Positions 1,788 through 64,000 of a stretch of 64,000 nt of DNA are shown piece by piece. The notes under the pieces were generated by a model. That model saw nothing but the letters and a program-made list of their open reading frames with translations, was not told the origin of the DNA and ran no database searches. The first letter of the stretch is position 1. Every line of letters starts with the position of its first letter. The position numbers and the translations under genes are program-made. Source of the DNA: Myxococcota bacterium. Lineage in GTDB: Bacteria > Myxococcota > XYA12-FULL-58-9 > JALHOP01. The stretch covers positions 248,001-312,000 of the forward strand of contig JALHOP010000006.1 in NCBI GenBank assembly GCA_022842935.1. The letters run 5' to 3'.

Positions 1788-1828
1788 CTCGGTCAGACGC
1801 AGCGTGCTGGCACCAAGCTCCAAGCGAC

Positions 1829-34561: not shown

Positions 34562-35635
34562 CTACTCGCGACGCGTGCGCTCCGCAACCCGGGTCTCACG
34601 CATGGCCTGCAAGACGTCTTCGTGGGGTGAGAACTTCGCTCGCTGCTTGTCGGTGAAGTGCGGGCTCGCCGCGAGCAGCCAGGCGAGGGTCTGCGTGAGG
34701 GTGAGACGCATCGAGCGGGGGTTGAAGCCGAGGCGTGCGACTTTTGCGTTGCTGTACCAAAAGTAGCGACCCGTTTGGCGGGCGAGCTCGACGGTCGCCA
34801 AAGGCTCTTTCTTGGTCACCTTGGCGCCGAGCTCCATCAGCGAAGCGGCGATGACTGCAGGGCCGCGTGTCACGGTGAGACGCGGCCTTGCGACGCCCGC
34901 GAGCTCCGCGAGTGTCTCGTGCATGTCACGCCATGTGACGTTTTCAGCGGCAAGGATGTAGCGCTCACCAGACGCGCCCTTTTCGGCAAGCAGCAGATGT
35001 CCGCGCGCGACGTCGGCGGCGTGGAGCACGTTCGCCCCACCCGGGTAGGTGAGCTTCATCGGGTCGGTGAGATAGCCAGTCACGGTGTTGAGGGAGGCGC
35101 TCGGCCGGTGGTCGTGGGGGCCTATGAAGACGCTGGGGTTCGCGAAGACGATGTCGACGCCGATCTCGGCCGCATGCTGGCGGGCCGCGTTCTCTTGCTC
35201 GGCCTTGCTCACGAAGTAGTCGGGTACCCCCTCGCTAACTGTAGGGGCACGTTCGTCGAGAACTTTCGGACCGTCACTGCCACCAAACACCGCCGTGCTC
35301 GAGGTCATGACGACACGACGCGCACCGACTGCCTTGGCGGCGTCGAGGACGTTGAGCGAGCCTTTCTTGGCCGTCTCCATCATCACGTCGCGGGTGTAGC
35401 CCCAATAGGCGAAAACCGCCGCGCAGTGAAAAATGACCTCGCAGTCCTTGGCGGCTTCGAGCACTTCGTCAGCGTTACGAACGTCTCCGTAGACGAGGGC
35501 GCACGGCAGTCCTTCGAGGCCCTGAAGCTTGCTCGAGCGGCGCACCATGGCGCGAACGTCGTGCCCGGACGCGAGCAGCTCGCGGACGAGGTTGCAACCG
35601 AGTAGGCCGTTGGCGCCGGTGACCAGGGCTCGCAT
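34562..35635 (-). CDS. Extended SDR (NAD(P)-dependent epimerase/3-beta-HSD-like)
   Basis: 357 aa. An N-terminal Rossmann motif G-A-N-G-L-L-G at residues 7-13 and the active-site Y-x-x-x-K as Y-F-V-S-K place it in the extended short-chain dehydrogenase family, with S-S-T for the catalytic Ser. It resembles dihydroflavonol reductase, hopanoid-associated HpnA and 3-beta-hydroxysteroid dehydrogenase types. A sterol or hopanoid sugar role is conceivable given the cyclase 8 kb away, but a linkage is not shown by the sequence. Its start faces the YceI gene across 157 nt. Confidence 0.85.
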   Translation of the reverse strand: MRALVTGANGLLGCNLVRELLASGHDVRAMVRRSSKLQGLEGLPCALVYGDVRNADEVLEAAKDCEVIFHCAAVFAYWGYTRDVMMETAKKGSLNVLDAAKAVGARRVVMTSSTAVFGGSDGPKVLDERAPTVSEGVPDYFVSKAEQENAARQHAAEIGVDIVFANPSVFIGPHDHRPSASLNTVTGYLTDPMKLTYPGGANVLHAADVARGHLLLAEKGASGERYILAAENVTWRDMHETLAELAGVARPRLTVTRGPAVIAASLMELGAKVTKKEPLATVELARQTGRYFWYSNAKVARLGFNPRSMRLTLTQTLAWLLAASPHFTDKQRAKFSPHEDVLQAMRETRVAERTRRE

Positions 35636-43140: not shown

Positions 43141-43581
43141 CTACGACTTTCCCGTTGCCTCGAGTGCGTAGATGGCGCCGCGAAACGCCTCGCCGATCGG
43201 TACCTTCGTCCCGAGCTTGTAGTCGAACCAGACACCCGTCGACTCCCCCTCGCAGACCAACTCGCCGCTGCCATTTATCATGCGGTAGGCGTTTACGATC
43301 GAGGTGTTACCGAGCCTTCGCGTGGTCACCGCGATGGAGATCGTATCGGGATAAAGAACGGGTTTGCGATAGTGGACCGTTTGGCTGACCAGAATCGGCC
43401 CCTCCTCGACGCCGTCGAGAGGCAGCCCGGCCCGTTCGAGGTAGGCGATGCGCGCCGATTCCATGTAGCGTACGTAGATCACGTTGTTCAGGTGCTTGAA
43501 GGCGTCCATTTCGCCCCAAGCCACGCGCACATCGATGGTTACCGGCCAGCGGCCGAGGCGTGGGTCTTCAACATCGCTCAT
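43141..43581 (-). CDS. Acyl-CoA thioesterase (4HBT hotdog family)
   Basis: 146 aa. Hotdog-fold thioesterase with the 4HBT motif W-G-E-M-D-A-F-K-H-L-N-N-V-I-Y-V-R-Y, Asp being catalytic. The ATG at 43581 is chosen because AAGGAG lies 7 nt before it; an in-frame ATG at 43605 is possible. Single gene, convergent with purU (12 nt between stops). The substrate is unknown; FadM/YbgC-like. Confidence 0.88.
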   Translation of the reverse strand: MSDVEDPRLGRWPVTIDVRVAWGEMDAFKHLNNVIYVRYMESARIAYLERAGLPLDGVEEGPILVSQTVHYRKPVLYPDTISIAVTTRRLGNTSIVNAYRMINGSGELVCEGESTGVWFDYKLGTKVPIGEAFRGAIYALEATGKS

Positions 43582-43665
43582 GACGAGCTCCTTAAGTTGG
43601 GCCAAAGTTGAGCGGACCAGCCTCCTCGACCAAGCGGTCGGTGAGTCGCGTATCGAGCCAACGAT

Positions 43666-45762
43666 TCACGCGAAGTCTCGTCGTGCGGCGCGGCCTGCCG
43701 CGAGCGCCCAGACCGGGAAGATGCTCCAATAAGAGACGTAGTCGATGGCGCAGTTGCGGTTCGTGACGCCCGCGACATGCTCTTTGTCCCAGCCACCGTC
43801 CGCGCGTTGCTTACGGCAGAGGTTCCGCATGGCGCGCCGAACAGCGGTCGTGTCGCCTTCGCCAGCGGCGACGAGGCCGAGGATCCCCCACGCTGTCTGC
43901 ACTGTTTGGCTGGTCTCTGCCTCGACGTAGTTGCGCTTACGGGAGCTCTCGATGGACTCACTCCAACCACCGTCGTCACGCTGCTTCGAGCGCAAGAAGC
44001 GGGCGGCGCGACGGATGGCGGGGTGTTTCGTGGACAGGCCGGCCGCACGCAGACCCTCGAGTGCGAACCAGGTGCCATACGTGAAACAGACGCCCCAGAA
44101 CCCCTCCCAGGAACCGTCCTCGCGCTGGACGCGCAGCAGATAGCGTACCGCTTGCTCCATGGAGCGATCGACTTGCGCACGGCGTTTGCGCGAGAGGCCC
44201 GGCTGTCTGCGATAGCGATCGAGGGCCTGCATGCACGACGAAGTGCACTCGATATAGCTGTAGTCGATCATGATCTCGGCGAAGAAGTCCGAGGGATTGA
44301 AGAGCTCGAGCCAGCGGGGCCCGCGCGTGCGCTCGTAGGTGGGAAAACCTCCTTCGGGGTTCTGCATGGCGAGGATCCAGTCGATGCCTGCCTCGATGCG
44401 GTCGTCGGGAACCTGCGGCGCGCTGAGCTTTAGCGGTCGCATGATGTCCAGCGCTTTCAGGGCTTCAGCGGTGCAATCGGTCACTGGCCAGCCCTGCTTG
44501 CGGTGACCGAAGCCCCAGCCTCCACGCTGCGGGTTGCGAAAATATTTGGCGCCGTTGGGCACGTCTTCGATGACCTGCTCAGCCTCGAGGAAACGCTGAG
44601 CTCCGGTGAGTTGGTCGCGATAGTCGTCGAGGGCGCCGGCCGCGTCGATGGCCTGGACCGCGAAAGCGGTGTCCCATACCTCGGACGAGTAGTAGCTCTT
44701 CACCTTGACGCCGTCTTGGCCGAACCAGAGGTACTCGGGCATGCGTGCGATGTGGCGCCTTACGCGTTCGCTCTGCGATCCGTCTTCGACGTGCCAGACG
44801 ATAGCATTGAGGACCTTGTTCAGCGGGCCGACGCAGGAGTAGTCGCTCGATTCGTCTTCGACGCGGATGTGCTCGAGGACCATCTCGACCGCCTTGGCGC
44901 GGAGCTTCGGGGAGTGGAATGGCTCGAGAGCGCCGAGCAGCTTGAATGACCAGACGAGCGTTCGGCTGTATTGAGCGTAAGCGTCGGACGTAGCGACGGC
45001 GCCGCGAGCTGCCTTCCAGTCGACGTCGGCGTAGGGGGTCGGATAGATTTCCTCGCGAAGCTCCTCTAAAACGGACGTCAGCGGCGTGACGAAGCGCTTG
45101 GCGTAGAGATAGCTCATTGGCAGGTAGACGATGCGACAATGCACCCAGAAGTTCGAAGGATGCAGTGGCAACTTCGGTGGCAAGAGCCACATCTCGGGCA
45201 CCAAGGGGTTCAGGCCGTCGTAGTCGTAGACGCCAAGAATGGCGAGCAAGAACTTGCCCCACGATGATGCCTTGAGGGCGCCGCCGCGCGGGAGAAACCA
45301 TTCGCGGCAGCGGACCATACGTGGATCGTCCGCCGGCACTCCCATGAGTCGCAGACCCACGTAGTTCGTGACCGACGAGACGACGTAGCTCGGCGACTCG
45401 ATGTCGAGACCGAAGCCGCCGTCGTCGTGTTGCTGACTCCAAAGGTAACGGATGAACCCGTCGCGAATAGGCGCCGGGAGGGGCTCGCCGAGAATGTGGT
45501 AGGTGCCAATGTAGTACGGGATGAGAAAGAGCGTGCCTGCGTATTCGCCGCGGAACGATCCCGATGGCGTCGTGAGGGCCATCATCGCATCGAGGCCGCG
45601 GGCGATGGCTGCGTCGACATCGTGGCTCTGAACTGGTCCTGCGGAGTGCTCGCCGCCGGTCGGTGGGGCGGGGCGTGCCTCAGTCGAGTGCAGGAGACAC
45701 CTCGCGCGCGAGGCCCATCGTTGCGCCCTTGAAGGTGAGGCGCAGGGCGCGATCGAATCCAA
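43666..45762 (-). CDS. Oxidosqualene cyclase (sterol-type)
   Basis: Up to 698 aa. The active-site motif is V-T-D-C-T-A-E (427-433, acid Asp429), the form found in lanosterol/cycloartenol synthases, not the D-x-D-D-T-A of squalene-hopene cyclases. A second Cys that activates this Asp is in Y-I-E-C-T-S-S. Further sterol-cyclase blocks: V-W-D-T-A-F-A-V-Q-A, G-S-W-E-G-F-W-G-V-C-F-T-Y-G-T-W-F and N-C-A-I-D-Y near the end. Several Q-W repeats are present. The start is uncertain: TTG at 45762 overlaps the upstream squalene synthase end by 83 nt and a CTG at 45693 follows GAGGTG; ATGs further in would remove conserved N-terminal sequence. The reaction is cyclisation of 2,3-oxidosqualene. Membrane-associated, monotopic. 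Confidence 0.93.
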   Translation of the reverse strand: MDSIAPCASPSRAQRWASRARCLLHSTEARPAPPTGGEHSAGPVQSHDVDAAIARGLDAMMALTTPSGSFRGEYAGTLFLIPYYIGTYHILGEPLPAPIRDGFIRYLWSQQHDDGGFGLDIESPSYVVSSVTNYVGLRLMGVPADDPRMVRCREWFLPRGGALKASSWGKFLLAILGVYDYDGLNPLVPEMWLLPPKLPLHPSNFWVHCRIVYLPMSYLYAKRFVTPLTSVLEELREEIYPTPYADVDWKAARGAVATSDAYAQYSRTLVWSFKLLGALEPFHSPKLRAKAVEMVLEHIRVEDESSDYSCVGPLNKVLNAIVWHVEDGSQSERVRRHIARMPEYLWFGQDGVKVKSYYSSEVWDTAFAVQAIDAAGALDDYRDQLTGAQRFLEAEQVIEDVPNGAKYFRNPQRGGWGFGHRKQGWPVTDCTAEALKALDIMRPLKLSAPQVPDDRIEAGIDWILAMQNPEGGFPTYERTRGPRWLELFNPSDFFAEIMIDYSYIECTSSCMQALDRYRRQPGLSRKRRAQVDRSMEQAVRYLLRVQREDGSWEGFWGVCFTYGTWFALEGLRAAGLSTKHPAIRRAARFLRSKQRDDGGWSESIESSRKRNYVEAETSQTVQTAWGILGLVAAGEGDTTAVRRAMRNLCRKQRADGGWDKEHVAGVTNRNCAIDYVSYWSIFPVWALAAGRAARRDFA

Positions 45763-46762
45763 CGAGCGCCGAGGTGACGGACATGACGAGTTTCACCATG
45801 CTGCGCTGAATCTTCACCCGCTTGGGACCAAAAGCCTCGCGGTTACCTTGCAGGGCGCGCAGGGTGAGCACCGCGTTGAAGAGCGGCCAGAGACAGAATG
45901 TGCGGATGCCGGTCTCGGACTTTGGGATGCGCAGAGTGTACTCGAAGGCTGCTTGCGCCTCGCGGTGCGCGACCGCAATCAGATCGTCGAGTAGCGCTAA
46001 GGCCTGCTCGCGGTAGGCGGGGTCGACGAGCTGCTTGGGCGTCAGCCCATGACGCGACAGTGCTGTCCGCGGTAGCCAACAGCTTCCGCGCTCCATGTCG
46101 GCGTGGACGTCCTGCAAGATATTGGTGAGTTGCAGAGCACGGCCAAACGAACCCGCGTTCGCGGCGAGAAAGTCGCTGTGTTCGCGGCACGCGGGCGAGT
46201 AGCCGATGAAAAGCGCTGTGAGCATCTCACCAACGGTGCCGGCAACGTAGTGGCAATAGAGCAGGGTCTCGTCGAGGTTCGCCAAGCCCTGAGGCACGCC
46301 GTTGCTGGCGGTCAGCTCCGCCATACCGGTCGTCATGGCGCGGATGCACTTTACGACGTGACCATGCGACCAGCTGGGCTGGGCCGCGTAGCAGACGAGG
46401 ACGTGCGGCAAGCCCAAGCACAAGTCACGCTCGGCATCGGGTGCTTCGCGACGCAGACTGCCAGCGATACGTGCAGCAAGGGCGCGCGCAGCCGGCTGCC
46501 AGCTCGAGCCGAGCTCTGCGACGCGCGTCAGCTCGGCCAGTTGTGCGGCGCGTTCGTCGTCGGGCGCGGCGCTCTCGTCTTCGATGGTGTCTGCGATGCG
46601 ACACAACAGGTAGGCGACAGTGACGACGATATCGAGAGGCGCCGGCAGCACCGGGATGTTCAGCGCGAAGGTCCGGGACACACGGGGCAGCATCCGCCTG
46701 CAAAACGCAGTGGCGGCGGAAGCCTGAAGGTCGGGGGCGTTCTCTGGGCGGCTCGATTCCAT
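45680..46762 (-). CDS. Squalene synthase
   Basis: 360 aa. Joins two farnesyl diphosphates to squalene. The first Asp-rich motif is D-T-I-E-D-E at 58-63 (eukaryotic squalene-synthase style), the second is N-I-L-Q-D-V-H-A-D at 214-222, and Y-C-H-Y-V-A-G-T-V-G at 169-178 is the conserved squalene-synthase block. Phytoene synthase is less likely on these motifs. The start ATG at 46762 is followed immediately by a plausible N-terminus; the longer open frame upstream runs into the divergent gene. Its stop overlaps the cyclase frame, so the two form an operon. Confidence 0.9.
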   Translation of the reverse strand: MESSRPENAPDLQASAATAFCRRMLPRVSRTFALNIPVLPAPLDIVVTVAYLLCRIADTIEDESAAPDDERAAQLAELTRVAELGSSWQPAARALAARIAGSLRREAPDAERDLCLGLPHVLVCYAAQPSWSHGHVVKCIRAMTTGMAELTASNGVPQGLANLDETLLYCHYVAGTVGEMLTALFIGYSPACREHSDFLAANAGSFGRALQLTNILQDVHADMERGSCWLPRTALSRHGLTPKQLVDPAYREQALALLDDLIAVAHREAQAAFEYTLRIPKSETGIRTFCLWPLFNAVLTLRALQGNREAFGPKRVKIQRSMVKLVMSVTSALVGFDRALRLTFKGATMGLAREVSPALD

Positions 46763-46803
46763 CGTAGACTTTCGTCGGGCGTTTACTATACGACGAGGGC
46801 GCC
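46763..46803. promoter_or_regulatory. 41-nt divergent control region of the squalene/sterol genes
   Basis: Only 41 nt separate the starts of squalene synthase (minus) and the epoxidase-like gene (plus). TACTAT (46784-46789) is a possible -10 for the plus-strand gene, followed by GAGGG as its ribosome site. A 5-bp inverted pair TCGTC/GACGA brackets it. No clear -35 is seen, so promoters probably overlap or lie inside the neighbouring coding region. Confidence 0.4.
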
Positions 46804-48282
46804 ATGGAAGAGCTGCCAGACTGCGTCTTTGATGCAGTAATCGTCGGCGCAGGCCCGGCCGGTTGCGCCGTTGCCGCCGCGCTCTCGGGTCTTGGCAAGA
46901 AGACCCTCCTCGTCGACTCGGGAGTCGACCGCAAGAAGCTGTTTTCAGGCGAGCTTCTCCATCCCGTCGGAGTTTCCGGTCTCGCCCAACTCGGCTTCTT
47001 GACCGCACTCGAGCGTTGCGGAGCCCTGCCCGTCAAAGGGTTCGCAGTGCTCGAGCCGGGTGAACCGGCGATGCTTCTGTCGTACGACACCCTAGGCGCT
47101 GGGGTGACCATCGAGCACGCTCGCCTGGTTGATGCGCTCCAAGAAGACGTGCTGCGCCGACCGCACGTCACGTTCTGGTCGAACGCGCGTGTCGAGGGCC
47201 TGGTGAGCCAGAGCGACGAAGAGGTCTCGGTCCGCATCCATCGGGAGGGTCAGCGCCTCATCGCGCGCGGCAGCATGCTGGTCATCGCGACAGGTCGCGC
47301 TGGCGCACTCCGCGAAGAGCTCGGCATCCGCGAGCGTCACCAGAAGATCTCGACCATGCTTGGCCTGACGGTGAGCGCCGACGATCTGCCGTTCGCGGAG
47401 CACGGTCATGTCTTCGTCGACGGCCAGGCACCGATTCTGGGCTACGCGATCGGCGACGGCCTCGCGCGCATCCTCGTCGACGTCCCGGAACACGTCGATT
47501 GGAAGACCCTAGCGGACGATCCGAGTTGGCCACGCGCCGTTCCCGAACCGTTACACTCCGCCATGCGCAGTGCGGTAAAGCGCGGCAAGCCTCTCTTTGC
47601 CTCCAACGACGTTCGCTTGCCAAACACCTCGGTGCGCGGCCGTGTTTGCCTCGTTGGCGACGCTGCTGGCTGCTGCCACCCGTTGTCGGTTTCTGGAATG
47701 ACCTCGGCAATTCGCGATGCCTTGGCCCTTCGCGAGGCCCTCGTTGCGTCGCCCAGAAGCGTCAGGTCGGCGTTGCGGAGTTATGCACGCGCCCGTCGCG
47801 CGCCGCAGCGGACGCGCATAGCGCTTTCGTCCGCGCTTTACCGCTGCTTTGCCGAATCGAGCGCAGAGATGGGCCTGCTACGCCGAGGCATGCGGCGGTA
47901 CTGGACGTCGTCGATTGAAAATCAGCAGGCGTCGCTCGCGCTGCTCGCGGGCCGCGATCTTCGCATGACGGCGATGGCCAAGGAGTACGGCTCGGTCGTC
48001 ACGCACGCCCTCGTCGACTGGAGCCGAAACGCCATCGCAGAGCGCAACCCGGTTGGCACCGTCGCCGAGCTGGGTCCTGTTGCGCGTCTCATCGGGACCC
48101 TCATGCCGCACGCACGGGACGCTCTCGTCGGTGCTCTCTCCGACACCGCAGGCCATCTGAAAGCGCAGGCGTCGCGCATGCCAACACGCCTCGCGCTCCC
48201 CGTCAGCCTGCCAGCCGCCCTTCGTTCGCAACGTCGGGCGCGGCACGCCGCCGGGCGAGGAACTTCGGCGCCCACCAATTGA
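46804..48282 (+). CDS. Squalene monooxygenase-like FAD enzyme
   Basis: 492 aa. Flavoprotein monooxygenase with the FAD dinucleotide motif G-A-G-P-A-G (15-20) and the second FAD site L-V-G-D-A-A-G-C-C-H-P-L-S-V-S-G-M (283-299). That site matches the G-D-A-x-x-x-x-H-P-L-x-x-x-G-M signature of squalene epoxidases. Taken with its position next to squalene synthase and oxidosqualene cyclase, the expected reaction is squalene to 2,3-oxidosqualene. A geranylgeranyl-reductase-like function is the alternative. It lacks the N-terminal membrane helix of eukaryotic forms. Its last 80 nt overlap the convergent transporter gene. Confidence 0.8.
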   Translation: MEELPDCVFDAVIVGAGPAGCAVAAALSGLGKKTLLVDSGVDRKKLFSGELLHPVGVSGLAQLGFLTALERCGALPVKGFAVLEPGEPAMLLSYDTLGAGVTIEHARLVDALQEDVLRRPHVTFWSNARVEGLVSQSDEEVSVRIHREGQRLIARGSMLVIATGRAGALREELGIRERHQKISTMLGLTVSADDLPFAEHGHVFVDGQAPILGYAIGDGLARILVDVPEHVDWKTLADDPSWPRAVPEPLHSAMRSAVKRGKPLFASNDVRLPNTSVRGRVCLVGDAAGCCHPLSVSGMTSAIRDALALREALVASPRSVRSALRSYARARRAPQRTRIALSSALYRCFAESSAEMGLLRRGMRRYWTSSIENQQASLALLAGRDLRMTAMAKEYGSVVTHALVDWSRNAIAERNPVGTVAELGPVARLIGTLMPHARDALVGALSDTAGHLKAQASRMPTRLALPVSLPAALRSQRRARHAAGRGTSAPTN

Positions 48283-50479
48283 GGTCGCCAAGCAGTGCCA
48301 TCGTCGACGGCACGATGAGGAGCCTGACGATGGTCGCATCCATGAGGATGGCCACCACGATACCGACGCCAGTGGCCTTCACCACCAGAATGCGAGCGAG
48401 CGAGAAGGCCGCGAAAACGGACACCATGATTGCGGCTGCGCTGGTGATGAGGCCGCTCGTGCGCTCGAGCCCGAACGCGACCGCCTGGGCGTTGTCGCCG
48501 GTGCGCTCGTATTCTTCTTGCATGCGGTGCAAGAGCAGCACCTCGTAGTCCATCGAGAGTCCGAAGACGATGCAGAAGAGCATCACCGGAAGGGTTGGGT
48601 CGATGAACCCCGGCTCGAACATCAAAATGTCGCGCCCGTGCCCCTCCTGAAATATCCAGACCAGAGCTCCGAACGAGGCGCCGATGGAGAGCAGATTCAT
48701 GAGGACTGCCTTGATTGGCAAGATCACCGACCGCAGCAGCGCGAAGAGAATGACGAGCGTCACCACGATGATGAATGCAACCGCCGACGGGCTGCGGTCA
48801 GCGACGAGGGCGAGGCTATCGAGGTCACGCGCTGTTTGACCACCAACCAGAATGGTTCCGTCCGCGACGCTACGGTCTGCGCGCAGAGCGCGCACCAGGT
48901 TGCGCGCTTCCGGGCTCGAAGGGCGCACGTCGCTGATGATGGTCATGAGCGTTGCCCGTTCGGCAACGAACGTGCGCATCGCGTAGCCGAGGTCCGGAGG
49001 CTGCATCGCGGCGGGAAGGGTGAGCATCATCGCATAGGTCGTGCCGTCTAGCCCTGGTGACAGGTCGACGATGCTCTCGACCGAGCGCACGTTCGGTAAG
49101 CCAGCCAGGCGGCGACTGGTCGCATGAAGCGCGTGAACACGCTCGCTGGTGAGGGCTGGTGCCGAAGGGAACTCGACGACCGCGTTGATTCGCGTCGCGG
49201 CGATTTCGGGAAATGCATCGCGTAGGACTCCAAAGCCCACGCGTGCCTCGGCTTGCGGCGGCAGCACGCTGACGTCGGTGGTTGCGACCTCGAGACGCGA
49301 GTACGGCCAGGCGGCAAAGCCCACGAAGGCCATCGCAGGCACGAGGACCAGCCATGGCCTGCGCGTCACAGCCAAGGCAAAGCCATGCCAACGTCCGCTC
49401 GAGCGGTCGACGCGACTCGGCCCGAACCGACCCCACTCAATGCGGTTGCCGAGTACGCCGAGGAGCGCTGGTAGCGTCGTCAGCGCCGCGACCACCGCGA
49501 AGGCAACTACGAGCGCCCCAGCGACGCCCAGCGCGGCGAGGAACGACCCGTGGAAAAAGAGGAGGGCGGTCAGCCCCGTTGCGACCGAAAGGCCTGAGAA
49601 GACCACCGAGCGCCCGGCTGTATGCAGCGCGATGACGAGTGCGTCTTCGACAGACCGACCCAGGGCTAGCTCGTCGCGATAGCGACTGACGATGAACAGC
49701 GAGTAGTCGATGGCGACACCGAGCCCGATGAGCGAGCAGATGTTGATCGCGTAGTTGGGCACGTCGGCGACCTGCGACAGCGCGAAGACAGCCGCGACGC
49801 CCGCCGCGACGGCTAGTCCCCCGACGACCACCGGCAAGAGGGCAGCGACGAAGCTGCGAAATACCAAGAGGAGAAGGAGCAACGAGATTGGGAGTGCGAT
49901 AGCCTCGGCTCGTAGGAGGTCGTCGCGCAGGCCAACCTCGATATCGTTCATGAGGACGAGCTTGCCAGTGAAGTTCGAGTCCAGAGGACCGCTCGGCACG
50001 AGCGCGCGAACGTCGGCGTAGTGCTTGGCCGCGGTCGGCAAGTCCCCACGCATGGTTACGGCAACAAGGGCACGTCTTGCGTCTTGGGAGTAGAAGCGTT
50101 GCGCCGCGGGGCCAGGCAGCCCCACCGGCGAGATCACGGAGATGACCTCGGGACTCGCCTTCAATGCGCTCACTGTCGCTGCGAGAGCACTCTGGAAATC
50201 GTCGTCGCCCACCGTCCACTGTTTGGAGGAGAGCACCACGAGAAACGACGAGTCGCCAGGTCGCGCGAGCGTCGCAATGAGCTCGTCAGCGCGCTTGGAC
50301 TCGGCGTTCTCGAAGTCGCCAATCGAGAGATGGCCTCCATGCGCCAGCACGATGCTCGCCAAGCCAAGCAAGACCGCGCTCGCAACCAGGATGCCCCGCC
50401 GGGCTCGGTAGACCCATCGACCCCAGGACCCGCTTCTTTGTTTCGACGGCTGCAAGCGCGCGGATGATGGGGCGGTCAA
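48203..50479 (-). CDS. MMPL/RND-family membrane transporter
   Basis: 758 aa in two repeats, each with one helix, a large periplasmic loop and five clustered helices (about 180-345 and 560-735), twelve membrane segments in total. Conserved MMPL/RND features include G-L-G-V-A-I-D-Y-S-L-F-I-V-S-R-Y-R-D-E and G-L-S-M-D-Y-E-V-L-L-L-H-R-M-Q-E-E-Y, the Asp-Tyr pairs of the proton relay. TTG start; alternatives exist. The family moves lipids and hydrophobic compounds (MmpL3, HpnN). Its 3' end overlaps the epoxidase-like gene, so a sterol-precursor or sterol transport role is plausible but unproven. Confidence 0.88.
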   Translation of the reverse strand: MTAPSSARLQPSKQRSGSWGRWVYRARRGILVASAVLLGLASIVLAHGGHLSIGDFENAESKRADELIATLARPGDSSFLVVLSSKQWTVGDDDFQSALAATVSALKASPEVISVISPVGLPGPAAQRFYSQDARRALVAVTMRGDLPTAAKHYADVRALVPSGPLDSNFTGKLVLMNDIEVGLRDDLLRAEAIALPISLLLLLLVFRSFVAALLPVVVGGLAVAAGVAAVFALSQVADVPNYAINICSLIGLGVAIDYSLFIVSRYRDELALGRSVEDALVIALHTAGRSVVFSGLSVATGLTALLFFHGSFLAALGVAGALVVAFAVVAALTTLPALLGVLGNRIEWGRFGPSRVDRSSGRWHGFALAVTRRPWLVLVPAMAFVGFAAWPYSRLEVATTDVSVLPPQAEARVGFGVLRDAFPEIAATRINAVVEFPSAPALTSERVHALHATSRRLAGLPNVRSVESIVDLSPGLDGTTYAMMLTLPAAMQPPDLGYAMRTFVAERATLMTIISDVRPSSPEARNLVRALRADRSVADGTILVGGQTARDLDSLALVADRSPSAVAFIIVVTLVILFALLRSVILPIKAVLMNLLSIGASFGALVWIFQEGHGRDILMFEPGFIDPTLPVMLFCIVFGLSMDYEVLLLHRMQEEYERTGDNAQAVAFGLERTSGLITSAAAIMVSVFAAFSLARILVVKATGVGIVVAILMDATIVRLLIVPSTMALLGDLNWWAPKFLARRRAAPDVANEGRLAG

Positions 50480-54227: not shown

Positions 54228-54863
54228 TTACGGCCCGAGCCGCTCCGTCCGCCACACAGGACCGTGAGGCAGGTACGCGATACGGTCGTGGAGTCGCGAC
54301 TGCCGCCCATGCCAGAACTCGAATCGGTTCGGCGCGACGCGGTAGCCGCCCCAGTGCGGCGGCCTCTCGATAGGCCCTTCGCCGTAGCGTGCCTTCGCGT
54401 CCGCGAGGCGCTTCTCGAGCTCGGCACGGTCGCGAACCGGGCTTGACTGCGGTGATGCCCAGGCGCCGAGCTGACTGGCGCGCGGGCGCGTCGCGAAGTA
54501 GCGCGCCGACTCGTCGTCGCTCACCTTGCTGGCCACACCCTCGATGCGAACCTGACGTTCGAGCTCTCCCCACCAGAAGCACAGAGCTACGCGGGGATTT
54601 GCGGCGATCGCTCGCCCTTTTCGCGAGTCGTAGTTCGTGAAGAAGACGAAGCCGCTTTGGTCAACGCCCTTGAGTAGCGCGATGCGCGCCGAGGGAGTCC
54701 CGTCTGGGTCGATGGTTGCCACGGTCATGGCAGTTGGCTCGCGGACCTGTGCTTTGATGGCCTCGTCGAGCCACTTGTTGAACTGGGTGAAGGGGTCGAG
54801 AGCGACGTCGCTCTCGTCGAGCGCGCCGCGCGCGTATTCGAGACGAAGGTCCTCGATGCTCAT
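54228..54863 (-). CDS. pdxH: Pyridoxamine 5'-phosphate oxidase
   Basis: 211 aa, FMN enzyme oxidising pyridoxine/pyridoxamine 5'-phosphate to pyridoxal 5'-phosphate. Family blocks: R-I-A-L-L-K-G-V-D (FMN phosphate), F-F-T-N-Y-D-S-R-K-G, the E-R-Q-V-R-I-E-G strand, S-R-Y-F-A-T-R-P-type A-R-Y-F-A-T-R-P-R-A-S-Q, and W-G-G-Y-R-V-x-P. Sits 16 nt downstream of menG on the same strand and may be the last gene of the menaquinone transcript. Confidence 0.96.
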   Translation of the reverse strand: MSIEDLRLEYARGALDESDVALDPFTQFNKWLDEAIKAQVREPTAMTVATIDPDGTPSARIALLKGVDQSGFVFFTNYDSRKGRAIAANPRVALCFWWGELERQVRIEGVASKVSDDESARYFATRPRASQLGAWASPQSSPVRDRAELEKRLADAKARYGEGPIERPPHWGGYRVAPNRFEFWHGRQSRLHDRIAYLPHGPVWRTERLGP

Positions 54864-54878
54864 GAACGAAACCCTACT

Positions 54879-55580
54879 TTACGCGACCCTTCCACAATAG
54901 ATGTGAGCAGCGCCAAAGGCGAGCCGGTCGATACCAACCTCGGAGAGGCCAGCTTTGCCCATCATCGCGGCGAACTCCTCCGGCGGGGGAAACGCGGCGA
55001 TCGAACGCTGCAGATAGCGATACTCTGGAGCACGCGACAGATACGCACCGAGCCGCGGTACGATGTGATGCACGTGCAAGCGCGCGAAGAACGCAAGCGG
55101 GCCGCCCTTCGGTTCGCCTAGCTCCAAAACGACGACCCGACCGCCCGGCTTCACGACACGACGCATCTCGGCGAGTCCCTTGGCGCGGTCGGGCACGTTA
55201 CGGATGCCGAAGCTGATACAGGCCCCGTCGAAGCTCGCATCGGGAAACGGCAGCGCCTGCGCGTCGCCGAGCACCAATTCGATACGGTCGCCGTAGGACG
55301 CAATCTTGCTCCGTCCGACATCGAGCATGTTGGCGCTGGGGTCGAGCCCGACCACCTTGGCGTCGGTGTGCGCGTCGGCGATGGCGATGGCCACGTCGGC
55401 GGTTCCGGTCGCGACGTCGAGCACGCGAGCAGATCGCGGCAGCTGCATGGCACGCACCAGGCGGTCGCGCCAACCGCGGTCCATGCCGAGGCTGATGATT
55501 CGGTTCAATCGGTCGTAGCGACCGGCGATACGGTCGAACATGGCGCCGCTACCGGCGGGAGCTCCTGCGACGTCTGTCAT
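54879..55580 (-). CDS. menG: Demethylmenaquinone methyltransferase MenG/UbiE
   Basis: 233 aa. C-methylates demethylmenaquinone using SAM. N-terminal F-D-R-I-A-G-R-Y-D-R-L-N signature, SAM motif L-D-V-A-T-G-T-A-D-V-A, and the UbiE block G-I-R-N-V-P-D-R. Its ATG overlaps the stop of the polyprenyl diphosphate synthase gene (ATGA). Confidence 0.95.
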   Translation of the reverse strand: MTDVAGAPAGSGAMFDRIAGRYDRLNRIISLGMDRGWRDRLVRAMQLPRSARVLDVATGTADVAIAIADAHTDAKVVGLDPSANMLDVGRSKIASYGDRIELVLGDAQALPFPDASFDGACISFGIRNVPDRAKGLAEMRRVVKPGGRVVVLELGEPKGGPLAFFARLHVHHIVPRLGAYLSRAPEYRYLQRSIAAFPPPEEFAAMMGKAGLSEVGIDRLAFGAAHIYCGRVA

Positions 55581-56800
55581 TTCGATCTCCTGATGGCATC
55601 CCGAACCACCATCGCGATGGCGTCGCGGGCGGGGCCGGGGGGCAAATGGCTGAGTGCTTCGGCGGCGCGCTCGCCTTGTTGCTCGGCGTACGCGCGCGTG
55701 ACTTGCAGGGCGCCCGTCGCGCGAATGCGCTCGACCAAGCTCTTGGCGAAGGCTAGGTCGTCGCTCGCGTTGCCGCGGACGTGGTGCTCGAGATCACGCG
55801 CCAGCGCGGGGTCGCGCTCGGCAGCGACGATGACCGGCCAGGTGAGCTTGCCCTCGCGGAGGTCCGCGAGTGGCGTCTTGCCGGTGACAGCGGTGGTACC
55901 CTCGAGGTCGATCACGTCGTCGATCAGCTGGAACGCCATGCCGAGCGCATCACCGACGCGCGCGAGGTGTCCAAGACTATCAGCCGACAGCTTGGCGACG
56001 AACCCTCCCGCCGTAAGACCCCAGCGAAAGAGGGCCGCTGTCTTGCCATGGATGACCTTGAGATACACGTCCCGTTCGGGACGGAAGCGGCCGCGCTGCT
56101 CGAGCTGAATCGCTTCGGCGTGAACCATTTCGGAGATCACGTTGAGCAGAGAGCGAAGCAGCGTCGGTTCGTTGGCGCCGTCGACGAGCTTCAAGGCTTC
56201 GACCAGCAAGTGGTCGCCTCCAAGAATACTCGCGCTGTTGCCGTAGATGAGACGCGCGGTTGCGGCGCCACGGCGCTCCTCACCCTGATCGAGGACATCG
56301 TCGTGCAGAAGCGTCGCGGCGTGAACGATTTCACACGCGACGGCGAGGTTGCGCACGACACTGTCGAGCTCGCGGCCACCCATACGGGCCGCGAGGAGCA
56401 CGCATAGCGGGCGAATGCGTTTGCCAGGGCGATCGAGGAGCTGCCGGGCGGCGCGGCGAGCCAAGAGCCCATCGACGCTCGGCGCACAGCCGTCGGCGTT
56501 CGCGGCTCGGGCATCGGCGTTGGGCAACTGGCCGTCGGCCGTGGGCGCTCCGCCATCGGTGTTCCGCTCGCGGACCTCGGCATCAATCCCCTGAATCGCC
56601 AGCTCGATCTGCATGAGATCATCGGCGAGGAGCGCCTTGAGCTCGTCGAGCCGCTCTGCCAAGGCGTCGACGCCGTTGGCTCGCGCCACATTCGCCAGTG
56701 GATCGAGGACGGGTTCACGTCGCGCTTCGCGCGGCCGTCGCGACAAGCTATCCTCGCGATTGACCAATACGAGCGCAGGCGCGTTGCTTGCGTCACTCAT
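55577..56800 (-). CDS. Polyprenyl diphosphate synthase (menaquinone side chain)
   Basis: 407 aa. Trans-prenyltransferase with G-K-R-I-R-P, the first Asp-rich motif L-L-H-D-D-V-L-D-x-x-x-x-R-R-G and the second Q-L-I-D-D-V-I-D. Its place in the men operon points to making the C35-C45 side chain for MenA. It is longer than usual (about 320-340) because of an Arg-rich N-terminus and a Gly/Asn/Asp/Ala-rich insert (about residues 79-112) of degenerate N-A-D-G-type repeats before the first helix pair. The ATG overlaps the menE stop (ATGA). Confidence 0.93.
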   Translation of the reverse strand: MSDASNAPALVLVNREDSLSRRPREARREPVLDPLANVARANGVDALAERLDELKALLADDLMQIELAIQGIDAEVRERNTDGGAPTADGQLPNADARAANADGCAPSVDGLLARRAARQLLDRPGKRIRPLCVLLAARMGGRELDSVVRNLAVACEIVHAATLLHDDVLDQGEERRGAATARLIYGNSASILGGDHLLVEALKLVDGANEPTLLRSLLNVISEMVHAEAIQLEQRGRFRPERDVYLKVIHGKTAALFRWGLTAGGFVAKLSADSLGHLARVGDALGMAFQLIDDVIDLEGTTAVTGKTPLADLREGKLTWPVIVAAERDPALARDLEHHVRGNASDDLAFAKSLVERIRATGALQVTRAYAEQQGERAAEALSHLPPGPARDAIAMVVRDAIRRSK

Positions 56801-58662
56801 ACGTCCTCCTCGTTCCGGGGGTTCTTACCTTGGCTTTCGAGCATGTCTTGACCGTCCGTTTTGGCGACGTCGACCGCGCCGGCATCGTGTTCTTTGCGCG
56901 GGTATTCGAGTATTGCCACGAGGCTTTCGAAGAGCTTCTTGCCGTGACGACGGGCGGCATCCAGGCTCTCTTCGAGGCCAAAGATTGGGGCGCGCCGCTG
57001 GTTCATGCCGACGCCGACTTCGTGAAGCCGATGCGTCTCGGGGAGCGCCTCCACATCAACGTTGCCATCGAGGCCGCGAGCCGCAAGACCATTACCATTG
57101 CGTATCGCCTTCTTGGAGAGGACGAAGTGCTGCGCGCCACCGCCCGCACCGTGCATGCGTTCGTCGACCTCGGAACTTTTCGAGGCGTGACCTTCCCGGC
57201 TGCTTTCGCGGACGCCTTGCGCCGCGTCGGCATCGACGGCCACGAAAAGATCGGGAGCGCGCAGGCGCAGTAGCTCGGCCAACGCGATGCGCGACCGTTT
57301 GTCCATGGCGCTAGTCGACAGGCTGTCGACCCACACGTAGCGGTCTGGCGTCTTGAAGCGCGACAACGACTTGCCGCACCATGCGTCGAGGTCGGTATCG
57401 AGCGGCCTTTGTGTGCCGCGCGCGACGACGAGAGCCACGGGTCTCTCACCCCATCGAGGGTTGGGGACCCCTAGCACGCAGACATCGCGGACCATGGGAT
57501 GCTCGCCGAGGACACGCTCGATCTCCAGGGGGTCCAGCTTCTCGCCGCCCGAGACGATAACGCCGTCGTCGCGGCCTTCGACCTGAACGCGGCCCTTCGC
57601 GTCGACAAAGCCGCGATCGCGGGTGGTCAAGACGCCGCCCACGGTCGGTCCAGCGATCTCGAGTAAGCCGTCGTTGGTGCGCACGCGTGCGAATGCCAGC
57701 GGCGCTCCCGCACCGGCGTCATCACTGGCGTCACCGATCGCCCGTGTCGCAACTTGCGAAGCGGCCTCGCTCATTCCCCATGTCAGCGCTACCGGCACTT
57801 CGAGAGCCCTGCAACGCGCGAGCAGATCGCTCGGCGTCTTGGCGCCGCCGATGAGCGCGACGCGCAGGCTTGCGGGGAACGGTTTGCCATCACGCACGTC
57901 GAGCACGCGCTCGAGCATGGTCGGCACCAGCGACACCATGGTCGCTTGGCCGAGGTCGAGGGCGCGAGCCACGCGTGTCGCAACGAATCGCGAATGTAAA
58001 ACCACGGTGGTGCCATAGAACGCGCAGCGGGTGATCACCGACAAGCCGCCGACGTGATGGAGTGGTAGGCAGGCGAGCCAGCGATCGGAAGCCCGGTGCT
58101 CCAAGCGGATCGCCGAGCCAAACGCCTGCAAAGCGATCTGCTGAGTGCTGAGCGACACCGGGCGCGGCGTCCCCGTGGTTCCCGAGGTGAGCAAGACGAG
58201 GCGCGTCTCGTTCCAAGGCCAGAATCGTTCGGCGGCGCGCTTAGCGTCCTGCGCGACGTCACCAAGCTCGAAGCGAATGGCCATCGCGTGGTCGGCGAGC
58301 ACGCTCGGAGCGCCTTGCGTCAGCACGACGGCGTCGGGGGTGAGCGTCGCGAGATCGCGCGCTAGCTCGTCGCCTGAGGCCTCATGGGCAAGCGGCGCGA
58401 CGGTCGCACCCAGCCAGCCGAGAGCATGAAAAGCAACCACCCAAGCGGAGCTCGCGACGCCGGACAACACGACCCGCATCCCAGGCTCGATACCCAGGGC
58501 AGACAGCCGTGCCGCCTCGATGGCGACGCGGTCACACAGGTCGCCGTAGCTCCATTCACCATCGTCGGCCACGAGCGCGCAATGCGAAGGACGCGCGATT
58601 GAAGCACTGCGGAGCGGATGGGGAATGGCGCCGCTGTCCGGGATGATCCAATCCTCGATCAT
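56797..58662 (-). CDS. menE: o-Succinylbenzoate-CoA ligase MenE with long C-terminal tail
   Basis: 621 aa. Adenylate-forming ligase converting o-succinylbenzoate to OSB-CoA. The P-loop L-T-S-G-T-T-G-T-P, the A5 region T-W-G-M-S-E-A, and the A7/A8 blocks (D-x-x-x-V-S-G-G-E-K-L, then P-x-x-x-E) are present. The family normally ends near residue 460; this frame continues about 155 further residues with no recognisable domain, antisense to the plus-strand thioesterase. The stop overlaps the next start (ATGA), as at other junctions of the operon. ATG 58662 follows GGAGG. Confidence 0.9.
   Translation of the reverse strand: MIEDWIIPDSGAIPHPLRSASIARPSHCALVADDGEWSYGDLCDRVAIEAARLSALGIEPGMRVVLSGVASSAWVVAFHALGWLGATVAPLAHEASGDELARDLATLTPDAVVLTQGAPSVLADHAMAIRFELGDVAQDAKRAAERFWPWNETRLVLLTSGTTGTPRPVSLSTQQIALQAFGSAIRLEHRASDRWLACLPLHHVGGLSVITRCAFYGTTVVLHSRFVATRVARALDLGQATMVSLVPTMLERVLDVRDGKPFPASLRVALIGGAKTPSDLLARCRALEVPVALTWGMSEAASQVATRAIGDASDDAGAGAPLAFARVRTNDGLLEIAGPTVGGVLTTRDRGFVDAKGRVQVEGRDDGVIVSGGEKLDPLEIERVLGEHPMVRDVCVLGVPNPRWGERPVALVVARGTQRPLDTDLDAWCGKSLSRFKTPDRYVWVDSLSTSAMDKRSRIALAELLRLRAPDLFVAVDADAAQGVRESSREGHASKSSEVDERMHGAGGGAQHFVLSKKAIRNGNGLAARGLDGNVDVEALPETHRLHEVGVGMNQRRAPIFGLEESLDAARRHGKKLFESLVAILEYPRKEHDAGAVDVAKTDGQDMLESQGKNPRNEEDV
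56830..57273 (+). CDS. menI: 1,4-Dihydroxy-2-naphthoyl-CoA thioesterase-like protein
   Basis: 147 aa from a TTG at 56830 (GGGGG upstream; TTG 56788 also possible). Hotdog thioesterase with V-R-F-G-D-V-D-R-A-G-I-V-F-F-A-R-V-F-E-Y, the 4HBT active-site helix seen in DHNA-CoA hydrolases, then a helix with C-H-E-A-F-E-E-L-L. DHNA-CoA hydrolysis is the step between MenB and MenA, and no other candidate is in the cluster. It lies on the opposite strand, entirely inside the 3' tail of menE. The symbol is inferred from context. Confidence 0.78.
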   Translation: MAFEHVLTVRFGDVDRAGIVFFARVFEYCHEAFEELLAVTTGGIQALFEAKDWGAPLVHADADFVKPMRLGERLHINVAIEAASRKTITIAYRLLGEDEVLRATARTVHAFVDLGTFRGVTFPAAFADALRRVGIDGHEKIGSAQAQ

Positions 58663-59645
58663 ACGACGCCTCCAGGAACGACGCCCAGACCAGGCCCGCG
58701 TGCGTGTGCGATACGACCGGAGATGACCGGGGAGAGGTTGGCGACGTCTTCGCTGAGCGGCTGGCCGAGACCGCAGATCGGATCGTCCGCCAAAGCGCAC
58801 GCTAGGTGTACTGCGTGAGCCCGTCCGACCGCAGATTCGAGCGCGTGTGTGACCACGACCGCGAGCCCGGCTCGGCGAACGGCGTCGGCGAGGTCGAAGG
58901 TCGCGCGGACACCGCCGAGGAACGCTGGCTTGAGCACGACGACGTCGGCCGCCTGGAGCGTGACGGCGCGTTCAAGACTCGCGATGCTGGTGATGTCTTC
59001 GTCAGCCGCAATGCGAATTCTAGTCGTCGCGCGGACGCGAGCCATGGCGTCGAGGCCGGTCACGGGCTGCTCGACGAAGTCGATGTCGAGGTCGTTCATT
59101 GCAGCCAGGGCGTCGCAGGCGGCGGCCACGGTCCATCCGCCGTTCGCGTCGAGCCGCAAGCGTATTTCACCCCCGACAGCCTCACGAATCTCGCGCACAC
59201 GGCGGCAGTCGACAGCGACTGGCTCGGCGGCCACTTTGACCTTGATCGCCACGTAACCCGAACGAGTGGCGGCCACGGCACTTTCGGCGTCGTTGACGAG
59301 CGCATGCGTGGCTGCGGCCGGGCGCGCCGCCGGCGAAAGCCACTGCGCGAGGGGCAGCCCCGCCTTCTGTGCCGCAAGGTCGCTCATGGCGCACGCGACG
59401 GCGCTTCGCACCTCTGGGAGCTCGGAGCTCTCGAGTGCTGTCAGCTCCGCCATGTGTGAGCGCACGCGCGACAACGTGCTACCGAAGCCGGGCCATGGCG
59501 AGCAGTCCCCATAGCCAGCGCGACCGTCGGCATCGCGCACGCGTACGATCCAACCCTCGCGATGTGAGAACGACCCGGCCGCCGTGAGCAGCGGCTTCAC
59601 GAAAGCGAGACGGTAAGGCTGCACCTGGATCGAGGTCATCGCCAT
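58659..59645 (-). CDS. menC: o-Succinylbenzoate synthase MenC
   Basis: 328 aa, enolase-superfamily dehydratase of SHCHC to OSB. The catalytic K-x-K motif (Y-V-A-I-K-V-K-V), metal ligands in R-L-D-A-N-G-G-W, F-V-E-Q-P-V and A-A-D-E-D-I, and the second Lys in V-V-L-K-P-A-F-L-G-G. The ATG at 59645 overlaps the end of menA by 10 nt, and its stop overlaps the menE ATG (ATGA). Confidence 0.95.
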   Translation of the reverse strand: MAMTSIQVQPYRLAFVKPLLTAAGSFSHREGWIVRVRDADGRAGYGDCSPWPGFGSTLSRVRSHMAELTALESSELPEVRSAVACAMSDLAAQKAGLPLAQWLSPAARPAAATHALVNDAESAVAATRSGYVAIKVKVAAEPVAVDCRRVREIREAVGGEIRLRLDANGGWTVAAACDALAAMNDLDIDFVEQPVTGLDAMARVRATTRIRIAADEDITSIASLERAVTLQAADVVVLKPAFLGGVRATFDLADAVRRAGLAVVVTHALESAVGRAHAVHLACALADDPICGLGQPLSEDVANLSPVISGRIAHARGPGLGVVPGGVV

Positions 59646-60583
59646 AACGTGACCCCCATCGTGAGAAGGACGCCGTAAAGGAGCATCAGCTGGGCAGTGC
59701 CGCCAAGGTGTCGGTTCAGTGCCGCGCCGTCGCTCGTGAGTACGCCGTGCGTGCGCATAACCGCCTGAGGCACGCTCAGTGCGACCGCGAGCCAACCGAC
59801 GGGCGTCACACTGGTGAAGTAACCGACAACGGGGATGATGTAGGCAGCTGCGACGAGTAGAACGTACTCAGTTCGCGCGAAGTGTGCGCCAAAGCGAACA
59901 GCCAGGGTGCGCTTGCCAACCTTGGCGTCACCGATGCGGTCGCGCAGATTGTTGACCACGAGGATCGCGGTGCATAGCGCCCCGAGAGCGGCACCCGCAT
60001 ACATGGTCGTTTGCGCAAGTTGGAGCGCTTGGACGTAATACGCACCGCCGACCGCCACGAGCCCGAAGAACACGAACACGAACAGATCGGCGATGCCAAG
60101 ATATGCAAGAGGGGCCGGACCTCCGGTGTAGAGGAAGCCGCAAGCCACGCTCGCGAGGCCGATGGCAACGATCGGCCAGCCCCCGCGTACAACCAGTGCG
60201 ACGCCTACGACGATGGCAAGCGCGAACGCCAGTATCGCCGCGATGAGCACCGCCCGCGGTGTGACCCACCCTCGCTGCGTGACGCGCGCCGGACCCAACC
60301 GCTCCGCGGTGTCCGCTCCCCGCTTGAAGTCGGCGTAGTCATTGAAGAGGTTCGTACCAATCTGGATCAGCATTGCACCGACGGCGGCAAGCAAGGCGTA
60401 AACCAGATGAAAGAGGCCGTCAGCGTATGCCAAAGCGGATGCGACGAGCACTGGGGCGATGGCCGCGGGTAGCGTTCGCGGACGCACAGCCAGAAACCAC
60501 GTGCGCACACGCCCGGGCCGTGCATCAGCCGCCGATGCTAGCTCGGTGTCCACTTTCGCGGGCATGTGCGTCGCGCTCGTCAT
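59636..60583 (-). CDS. menA: 1,4-Dihydroxy-2-naphthoate prenyltransferase MenA
   Basis: 315 aa, UbiA-family membrane enzyme attaching the polyprenyl chain to DHNA. The first Asp-rich motif N-L-F-N-D-Y-A-D-F-K-x-G-A-D binds diphosphate-Mg; the second is N-N-L-R-D-R-x-x-D. Eight or nine hydrophobic helices. Ten nt after menB. Confidence 0.95.
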   Translation of the reverse strand: MTSATHMPAKVDTELASAADARPGRVRTWFLAVRPRTLPAAIAPVLVASALAYADGLFHLVYALLAAVGAMLIQIGTNLFNDYADFKRGADTAERLGPARVTQRGWVTPRAVLIAAILAFALAIVVGVALVVRGGWPIVAIGLASVACGFLYTGGPAPLAYLGIADLFVFVFFGLVAVGGAYYVQALQLAQTTMYAGAALGALCTAILVVNNLRDRIGDAKVGKRTLAVRFGAHFARTEYVLLVAAAYIIPVVGYFTSVTPVGWLAVALSVPQAVMRTHGVLTSDGAALNRHLGGTAQLMLLYGVLLTMGVTLWR

Positions 60584-60593
60584 GATTTTCCCT

Positions 60594-61421
60594 TCAGGGA
60601 ACCCTCTTGAACTTCTTGAAGTCTGGCTTACGCTTCTCCACGTACGCGTTGCGTCCTTCCTGGCCCTCTTCGCTCATGTAGAAGAGCAGGGTCGCGTCGC
60701 CAGCGAGCTGCTGGACGCCGGTCATGCCGTCGACGTCGGCGTTGAACCCAGCCTTCAGCAAGCGCAGCGCCATGGGCGAGAGTGCCAACATCTCGCGACA
60801 CCACTTCACCGTCTCCTTTTCGAGCTCGGCGAGCGGTACCACGTGATTTACCAACCCCATGTCGAGAGCCTCTTGGGCGCCGTACTGGCGGCACAAGAAC
60901 CAGATTTCTCGCGCCTTCTTCTGACCGACCATCCGCGCCAGTAAGCCCGCGCCGAAACCGGCATCGAAGCTACCGACACGGGGACCCGTCTGTCCGAATC
61001 TCGCATTGTCGGCGGCGATGGTGAGGTCGCAGCACACATGCAAGACGTGACCGCCACCGATGGCGTAGCCCGCGACCATCGCGACGACCGGCTTCGGACA
61101 GGTTCGAATGAAGCGCTGTAGATCGAGGACGTTCAAGCGCGGCACGCCATCGGGCCCGACATAGCCCTTGTCGCCACGCACGCGTTGGTCGCCTCCCGAG
61201 CAGAACGCGAGATCGCCCTTGCCCGTCAGGACGATGACGCCGATCTCCGGATCTTCACGCGCGTCGTAGAAAGCCGACGAGAGCTCGAAGATGGTCTGCG
61301 GCCGGAATGCGTTGCGGCACTCGGGACGGTTGATGGTGATCTTCGCGATGCCTTCGGCCTTGTGATACTCGATGTCCTCGAAGGCTTTGACCTTCACCCA
61401 GTTTGGTAGCTCAGTTCCCAT
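60594..61421 (-). CDS. menB: 1,4-Dihydroxy-2-naphthoyl-CoA synthase MenB
   Basis: 275 aa, crotonase-fold ring-closing enzyme making DHNA-CoA from OSB-CoA. Clear MenB blocks: [24 protein letters not shown] and [10 protein letters not shown], close to the E. coli type that uses bicarbonate as base. Nine nt after menD. Confidence 0.97.
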
Positions 61422-61430
61422 AATCTCCCT

Positions 61431-63179: not shown

Positions 63180-64000
63180 GCGTTGCTCGCCTGACGACTA
63201 TCATGTTCGCCGGTTTCGAGCTCGAGGCTCACGGCGTCGGTGATGCCGGCGAGCTTGAGCTCGGTCTCTCGCCACTCGTCACGTGGGTTCGAGGTGGCGA
63301 CGATGCCACCGCCAGCGAATGCCCAAGCGCGGTCACCTCGAAGCATCATCGAGCGAATCGCGACGACCAAGGTGCCTTCGCCTGCCGCGTCGACGACGCC
63401 GACTGGTCCGCTGTACCAGCCACGCGCGAGGGGTTCGCTCTCGGCGAGATAGTGTGCGGCGCGTTCGCCCGGGAAGCCGCCCACCGCGGGAGTGGGGTGC
63501 AGCTCGGCAGCCAACGCCAAGATGTGGCAGTCGCCGGCGAGCTTGCCGCGCATCACGGTTTCCAAGTGCTGGACGTGCGTAAGCTTCACGAGTCGCGGTG
63601 TCTGCTCGTTGGCTGCTTCGATCACCGTGCAGTGCGCCGCGAGGCGGTCCCGCAGGGCGTGGGCAACAACGTCATGCTCTTCACGATTCTTGGCGCTCGC
63701 CACCAGCGCGGCCGCGAGATCGTCGTCTTCGCGTTGCGAGGCGCCCCGCGGCGCGGTCCCTGCCAACGCGTGCGTCTCGACCCAGCCCCCGGAGACCTTG
63801 AGCAATGTTTCGGGCGTGGCTCCCACGAAATAGCTGCCATCGTCGTTACCGACCGCAAAGCAGGTTGCTGCTGGGTGCCTCTCGATGAGGCTGATGAGCG
63901 TCCGCACAGGGTCGATGACGGCCCCGCGTGGGGTCTTCATGCGCGTCGCGCGGGCGAGGACGATCTTTTCCATGGAGCCCGCGCCGATGACCTCGCAGGC
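63176..64000 (-). CDS. menF: Isochorismate synthase MenF, 3' part
   Basis: 275 visible C-terminal residues of a chorismate-binding enzyme converting chorismate to isochorismate; the gene continues past the right edge. Key blocks: K-I-V-L-A-R near the visible start, E-T-L-L-K-V, A-L-A-G-T-A-P-R-G, L-H-P-T-P-A-V-G-G-F-P and W-Y-S-G-P-V-G. Salicylate synthase is less likely, since menD follows with an ATGA overlap. First visible gene of the menaquinone operon. Confidence 0.93.
   Translation of the reverse strand, partial: ACEVIGAGSMEKIVLARATRMKTPRGAVIDPVRTLISLIERHPAATCFAVGNDDGSYFVGATPETLLKVSGGWVETHALAGTAPRGASQREDDDLAAALVASAKNREEHDVVAHALRDRLAAHCTVIEAANEQTPRLVKLTHVQHLETVMRGKLAGDCHILALAAELHPTPAVGGFPGERAAHYLAESEPLARGWYSGPVGVVDAAGEGTLVVAIRSMMLRGDRAWAFAGGGIVATSNPRDEWRETELKLAGITDAVSLELETGEHDSRQASNA

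Follow-up and report, generated by a model that had tools for sequence, protein, structure and literature searches.

A Myxococcota oxidosqualene cyclase without the nearly invariant pocket phenylalanine and its possible protostane product

Which triterpenoid does a bacterial oxidosqualene cyclase (OSC) make when the nearly invariant, cation-stabilising phenylalanine of its pocket is replaced? The question is raised by a 64,000-nucleotide stretch of DNA (positions 248,001 to 312,000 of contig JALHOP010000006.1, assembly GCA_022842935.1; hereafter the window) from a Myxococcota genome of 6.28 Mb in 46 contigs (97% complete), in which genes for a squalene synthase (SQS), a squalene-epoxidase-family enzyme (SQE) and an OSC lie together (Table 1). 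The initial annotation had described the three as adjacent, and matches to PF00494, PF08491 and TIGR01787 place all three ORFs there; we are highly confident of the module and of the enzyme classes assigned to it. The three-gene set is the known myxobacterial sterol locus, and the new part is a variant of the cyclase pocket, in which human Phe696 is a threonine (T667). We tentatively propose that a natural bacterial OSC arose through loss of the pocket Phe, that it breaks off the cascade at an early stage to give a protostane, either protosta-13(17),24-dien-3beta-ol or an isomer close to it, and that it moved between Myxococcota classes as a single gene, in one Myxococcaceae lineage displacing the cyclase already there.

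Judged from its sequence, the window cyclase is an OSC and no hopene cyclase. It scored 609.3 bits against TIGR01787 (squalene/oxidosqualene cyclase family, cut-off 322.7), and the nearest model, TIGR03463 (NCBIfam bacterial 2,3-oxidosqualene cyclase), gave 724.8 bits, under its curated cut-off of 851. The best solved match was human lanosterol synthase 1w6k (592 bits, ~42% identity), on which an AlphaFold2 model (pLDDT 93.9, pTM 0.93) superposed with a TM-score of 0.96 at 1.4 A. Alignment with 1w6k recovered the whole catalytic signature, D455-C456, C533 and H232/Y503 (human numbering throughout, unless a window residue is named), and the motifs VTDCTAE, YIECTSS and NCAIDY, quoted in the initial annotation, are all present. 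In a tree of 105 OSC rows and 5 hopene cyclases, and again in a second tree that was smaller and built with more care, the hopene cyclases were split from the OSC rows at support 100. The window cyclase forms a clade (support 100) on a long stem (0.74-0.77) with L034, an OSC 70% identical to it from the Myxococcaceae metagenome-assembled genome (MAG) PMV_1_maxbin.012 (contig G179:C511). The larger tree places this pair inside a 44-row set (support 97) with Myxococcaceae and Methyloceanibacter cyclases, corresponding to group 2c of PMC4919349, and the smaller tree places it basal to that set (91/88).

At position 696 the 105 OSC rows hold Phe in 99 cases, Tyr in 2 and a gap in 2, with Thr only in the window cyclase and L034. 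The window cyclase reads GVTNRNCAIDY, where nearly all OSCs have GVFN or a similar string a few residues upstream of NCAIDY. Positions 381/449/453 are Y/Q/V; Q449/V453 is common to the window cyclase and L034, whereas the remaining rows of their group have H449/I453, and the two residues co-occur in most other rows carrying either. Twelve columns of the window cyclase deviate from the residue common to at least 95% of the other rows, among them 696, 94 and 101 (beside Y98), 231 (between W230 and H232), 380 (beside 381) and 445 (beside F444), and these six deviations are all common to L034, which carries the same T696/Q449/V453/D703 set. Several changes therefore adjoin catalytic positions in the aligned sequences of this long-branched pair, while Y98, W230, H232, Y237, W387, F444, D455, C456, Y503, C533 and W581 are kept. 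Between the two OSCs dN is 0.234 and dS 1.247 (dN/dS ~0.19), a low dN relative to dS which indicates that the variant has been maintained by purifying selection.

Altered pockets were also seen elsewhere in the alignment. The sole other departure at Phe696 is a Tyr, together with C700G, in two OSCs of the Myxococcaceae family (L027 and L029, genomes G115 and G102). Two OSC-like enzymes from Nocardia, L110 (Nocardia sp. alder85J; Y232, G456, Q533) and L112 (Nocardia anaemiae; F230, Q232), have strongly altered pockets and are likely, on these residues, to form other products.

For comparison with characterized enzymes, we take the T667 position to be that of yeast Phe699, of Phe701 in the fungal protostadienol synthase and, by the usual plant numbering, of Phe728 in the plant protostahopenol synthase (PHS). 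A single substitution in the yeast OSC, reportedly F699T, is said in the title of Wu et al. 2008 (cited in PMC6678101) to yield protosta-13(17),24-dien-3beta-ol. The Phe of the plant OSC TwOSC1 (8j5z) aligns with window T667. The PHS mutants F728A and F728S make (20R)-protosta-13(17),24-dien-3beta-ol, and plant mutants lacking this Phe no longer form their normal product (PMC11951148). In the fungal protostadienol synthase, the active-site residue Phe701 is credited with stabilising the C-20 protosteryl cation (PMC3901436). Both A. fumigatus OSC3 protostadienol synthase and the PHS mutants stop rearrangement early, after the protosteryl cation, as is predicted for the window cyclase; the fungal enzyme, however, has retained Phe701 and its product is the 17(20)Z isomer, and its likeness to the window cyclase is one of mechanism and not of family.

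In the proposed pathway, SQS would couple two farnesyl diphosphates to squalene, and SQE would convert squalene with O2 to (3S)-2,3-oxidosqualene. Asp429 of the OSC, activated by Cys430 and Cys506, would protonate the epoxide, and the substrate would fold into a tetracyclic 3-beta-hydroxy triterpenoid by way of the protosteryl cation, the series of 1,2-shifts ending early under the influence of T667 and the Q449/V453-type residues. The product would be used as such in the membrane, perhaps after being moved by the adjacent MMPL protein. The initial annotation had implied lanosterol, cycloartenol or parkeol as the product, which is not secure given the loss of Phe696 and the further pocket substitutions; an interrupted-rearrangement product is, on these residues, a serious possibility. 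We put at about even the chance that the module works and that its product is neither plain cycloartenol nor plain lanosterol. The likeliest single (major) product is predicted, with much reserve, to be protosta-13(17),24-dien-3beta-ol, with lanosterol close behind and a mixture as the other outcome.

Several points weigh against an early-stopping cyclase. The Phe-mutant data come from other backbones, and the natural enzyme of the window has had time in which to make up for the lost Phe; the Thr could simply leave lanosterol as the product, as V453 and Q449 alone predict. SQE lacks the Asp of its DG motif and may, from its sequence, be a weak enzyme. The two cytochromes P450 of the genome may still have sterol activity. 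Corallococcus coralloides has SQE and OSC and yields no sterol in culture (PMC4919349), which shows that possession of the genes is not by itself enough for a culture to make sterol.

An ordinary lanosterol synthase, in which V453 and Q449 make lanosterol the end point and other pocket changes compensate for F696T, is possible though somewhat unlikely. The published product criteria are Y381/H449/I453 for cycloartenol and T381, C or Q449 and V453 for lanosterol, V453 alone serving for bacteria, where the presence of V453 or I453 told lanosterol producers from cycloartenol producers in every bacterium tested, V453 being fully correlated with lanosterol (PMC4919349). Prediction of a bacterial OSC product from one residue has a precedent in the Gemmata enzyme, where L444 marks parkeol (PMC9236903). 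The bacterial V453 rule fits the window cyclase, its Q449 and V453 are a pair found together in most other rows with either residue, and the H232/Y503 deprotonation pair is kept. Human lanosterol synthase likewise has in common with it the fold, the catalytic acid, Cys, His and Tyr, most aromatic pocket residues and V453, but has F696, C449 and T381 where the window cyclase has T, Q and Y. Tyr381 is not lanosterol-type, position 696 is otherwise Phe or Tyr in all OSCs compared, and the plant mutants deprived of this Phe do not retain their normal product.

A cycloartenol synthase like those of the Myxococcaceae that share the gene order is improbable. The OSC lies in or just outside the group holding the Myxococcaceae and Methyloceanibacter cycloartenol synthases, Y381 is present, and the layout is identical: the order MMPL, reversed SQE, SQS, OSC is common to Corallococcus, Myxococcus and Citreicoccus (L040, L042, L044, L045, L056, L065, L109). 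Stigmatella and Cystobacter make cycloartenol (PMC4919349; PMC12004948). The Myxococcaceae cycloartenol-synthase module (Stigmatella, Cystobacter, Corallococcus; group 2c, Wei et al. 2016) has, in Corallococcus and Myxococcus, the same four genes in the same order and orientation at ~43-55% identity, and downstream demethylation is expected in neither that module nor the window. That module, however, has F/H/I at 696/449/453, against T/Q/V in the window, whose host is of another class, and several clade-specific changes stand beside catalytic residues. Cycloartenol is no longer expected because the Phe696 equivalent is Thr667, because the residues at 449 and 453 are of the Q/V type and because their neighbours are altered.

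Least probable of the readings that accept an OSC is a decaying module, with SQE or OSC inactive and the residue changes due to drift. The loss of the SQE DG-motif Asp and the long stem of the OSC pair speak for it; every frame, on the other hand, is intact, the acid motif and most pocket residues are kept, and the same T/Q/V set recurs at a dN/dS of ~0.19 in a 70%-identical relative from another class. A hopanoid module with a squalene-hopene cyclase can be dismissed, since it has in its favour just a common fold and distant homology (TM-score 0.87 to hopene cyclase 2sqc), against a TIGR01507 score of 277 bits (cut-off 431.1), an acid motif, DCTAE, that is not that of hopene cyclases, and a tree in which the OSC did not fall among them, a placement that the initial annotation had set as the refutation of its view.

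How the variant cyclase came to be in two classes is suggested by the surroundings of L034. Its 3.5-kb contig carries the OSC followed by genes read as type-2 isopentenyl diphosphate isomerase (fni) and HMG-CoA reductase, whereas the window OSC stands beside SQS. The contig's fni gene is 64-73% identical to those of Myxococcaceae-family genomes (71-73% to four) and is absent from the window genome, an affinity which shows the contig to be really of the Myxococcaceae family and rules out misbinning; the MAG (G179) holds a second fni fragment and may be a mix of two Myxococcaceae. SQE and SQS of this MAG form a divergent pair on another contig, with no OSC behind, and both group with Myxococcaceae and not with the window. 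A constraint that put the L034 OSC in a group with Myxococcaceae and left the window OSC outside was rejected (approximately unbiased test, p 4e-5, for a group chosen after the first tree). Since SQS and SQE of the MAG do not follow those of the window, the variant cyclase seems to have been transferred by itself; the simplest account of these sequences is that it apparently passed from the lineage of the window, or a relative, to a Myxococcaceae line, a direction that we infer.

The product would probably stay largely undemethylated. The initial annotation saw no CYP51, and none is recognisable in the whole genome either. Of the two P450s present, neither is CYP51-like: one has its best match in CYP120 (145 bits, where a CYP51 scored 94) and lacks the AGxxT motif by eye, and the other is a general CYP102/CYP97-like protein. 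An ERG4/ERG24 protein was likewise not found in the whole genome by a search that was validated by its hits in 30 of 193 Myxococcota, with 25 Myxococcota other than this one exceeding the cut-off. As no CYP51 or ERG24 was found, with SdmA-type oxygenases not searched for, the product is probably a C30 alcohol keeping its methyl groups. For a hopene cyclase or second cyclase the whole genome offered no more than a weak 37-bit match; in a search of this kind, the hopene cyclases that other genomes encode reach 140-180 bits. The genome has five PF04116 hydroxylase loci, none assigned to sterol C-4 oxidation; one of them lies in the window (951-1943, minus strand) and has a weak affinity to the ornithine-lipid hydroxylase OlsE. 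A short-chain dehydrogenase/reductase gene (34562-35635, minus strand) ~8 kb from the OSC scored 246 bits against the hopanoid-associated HpnA (cut-off 368) and 152 bits against the sterol demethylase SdmB (cut-off 600), and could be unrelated.

Table 1 Features of the sterol locus in the window
Feature	Position	Strand	Evidence or remarks
4HBT acyl-CoA thioesterase	43141..43605	-	PF13279 79 bits; same strand, 60 bp downstream of OSC
OSC	43666..45762	-	TIGR01787 609 bits; 1w6k 592 bits; AlphaFold2 model TM 0.96 to 1w6k
T667 codon (ACG)	43762..43764	-	Human F696, nearly invariant cation-stabilising Phe
Acid motif VTDCTAE, residues 427-433	44464..44484	-	D429 = human D455, C430 = C456, V427 = V453
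Q423 codon	44494..44496	-	Human C449; Q lanosterol-type, H cycloartenol-type (PMC4919349)
SQS, farnesyl-diphosphate farnesyltransferase type	45680..46762	-	ATG start; PF00494 162 bits; YCHYVAGTVG and two Asp-rich motifs
SQS/SQE divergent intergenic region, 41 bp	46763..46803	.	Sequence read; presumed promoter region of SQS-OSC and SQE
SQE, squalene-epoxidase-family FAD monooxygenase	46804..48282	+	PF08491 78.1 bits; 43-47% to Myxococcaceae SQEs
MMPL-family transporter	48203..50479	-	PF03176 271 bits; 50-55% to same-place Myxococcaceae MMPL genes

All three frames of the module are intact and native in composition. The G+C content at third codon positions equals that of the neighbouring genes and the contig is 345 kb long, which points to neither a recent acquisition nor an assembly fault and rules out a foreign or misassembled contig. 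The OSC may start at TTG 45762, with an 83 bp overlap with SQS, or at ATG 45585. The best solved relatives of SQS are eukaryotic squalene synthases, and among NCBIfam models TIGR01559 was best at 108 bits, below its cut-off of 286.75, followed by HpnD (80) and HpnC (68). SQE exceeds the PF08491 cut-off of 20.1, has human squalene monooxygenase as its best solved match (72.7 bits) and, of the GxGxxG, DG and GD motifs of class A flavoprotein monooxygenases, retains the first and last as GAGPAG and GDAAGCCHPL; the DG-motif Asp, present in 45 of 51 aligned sequences, is replaced by Thr (VIATGRAG) in the window sequence only. The MMPL protein is a conserved neighbour of the module and perhaps a lipid transporter, judging by its family. 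The thioesterase gene was not found beside the module in the other genomes compared. An apparent menaquinone operon (54228-63973, minus strand) ~4 kb from the MMPL gene comprises pyridoxamine-oxidase-like, UbiE/MenG-like, polyprenyl synthase, AMP-ligase (MenE-like), MenC-like, UbiA (MenA-like), enoyl-CoA hydratase (MenB-like), TPP enzyme (MenD-like) and chorismate-binding (MenF-like) genes.

The rarity of bacterial sterol makers asserted in the initial annotation did not hold, and its list of producers is dated: an OSC was found in 56 of the 195 Myxococcota genomes searched, mostly in the Corallococcus/Myxococcus family with its conserved layout, and 121 OSCs are known from Myxococcota MAGs (PMC12004948). 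With more than 100 myxobacterial OSCs published, the Myxococcota setting is unsurprising. Of the 8 genomes that stand for the host class in the collection, the window genome alone has an OSC, the 7 others having none. The window SQE joins Myxococcaceae at support 100, in a group that also takes in a single alphaproteobacterial MAG row on a long branch, and the window SQS joins them at 88.

Molecules derived from sterols are taken, when found in rocks, as evidence of eukaryotes, and bacterial sterol cyclases figure in the discussion of how the eukaryotic pathway arose. Until now, one or two pocket residues have served to class bacterial OSCs as producers of lanosterol, cycloartenol or parkeol. 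Two OSCs that lack a nearly invariant cation-stabilising residue and are under purifying selection could extend this range of natural products, and they offer a test of how rearrangement is terminated. A bacterial protostane, if true, would also be a source of lipids that has not yet been taken into account.

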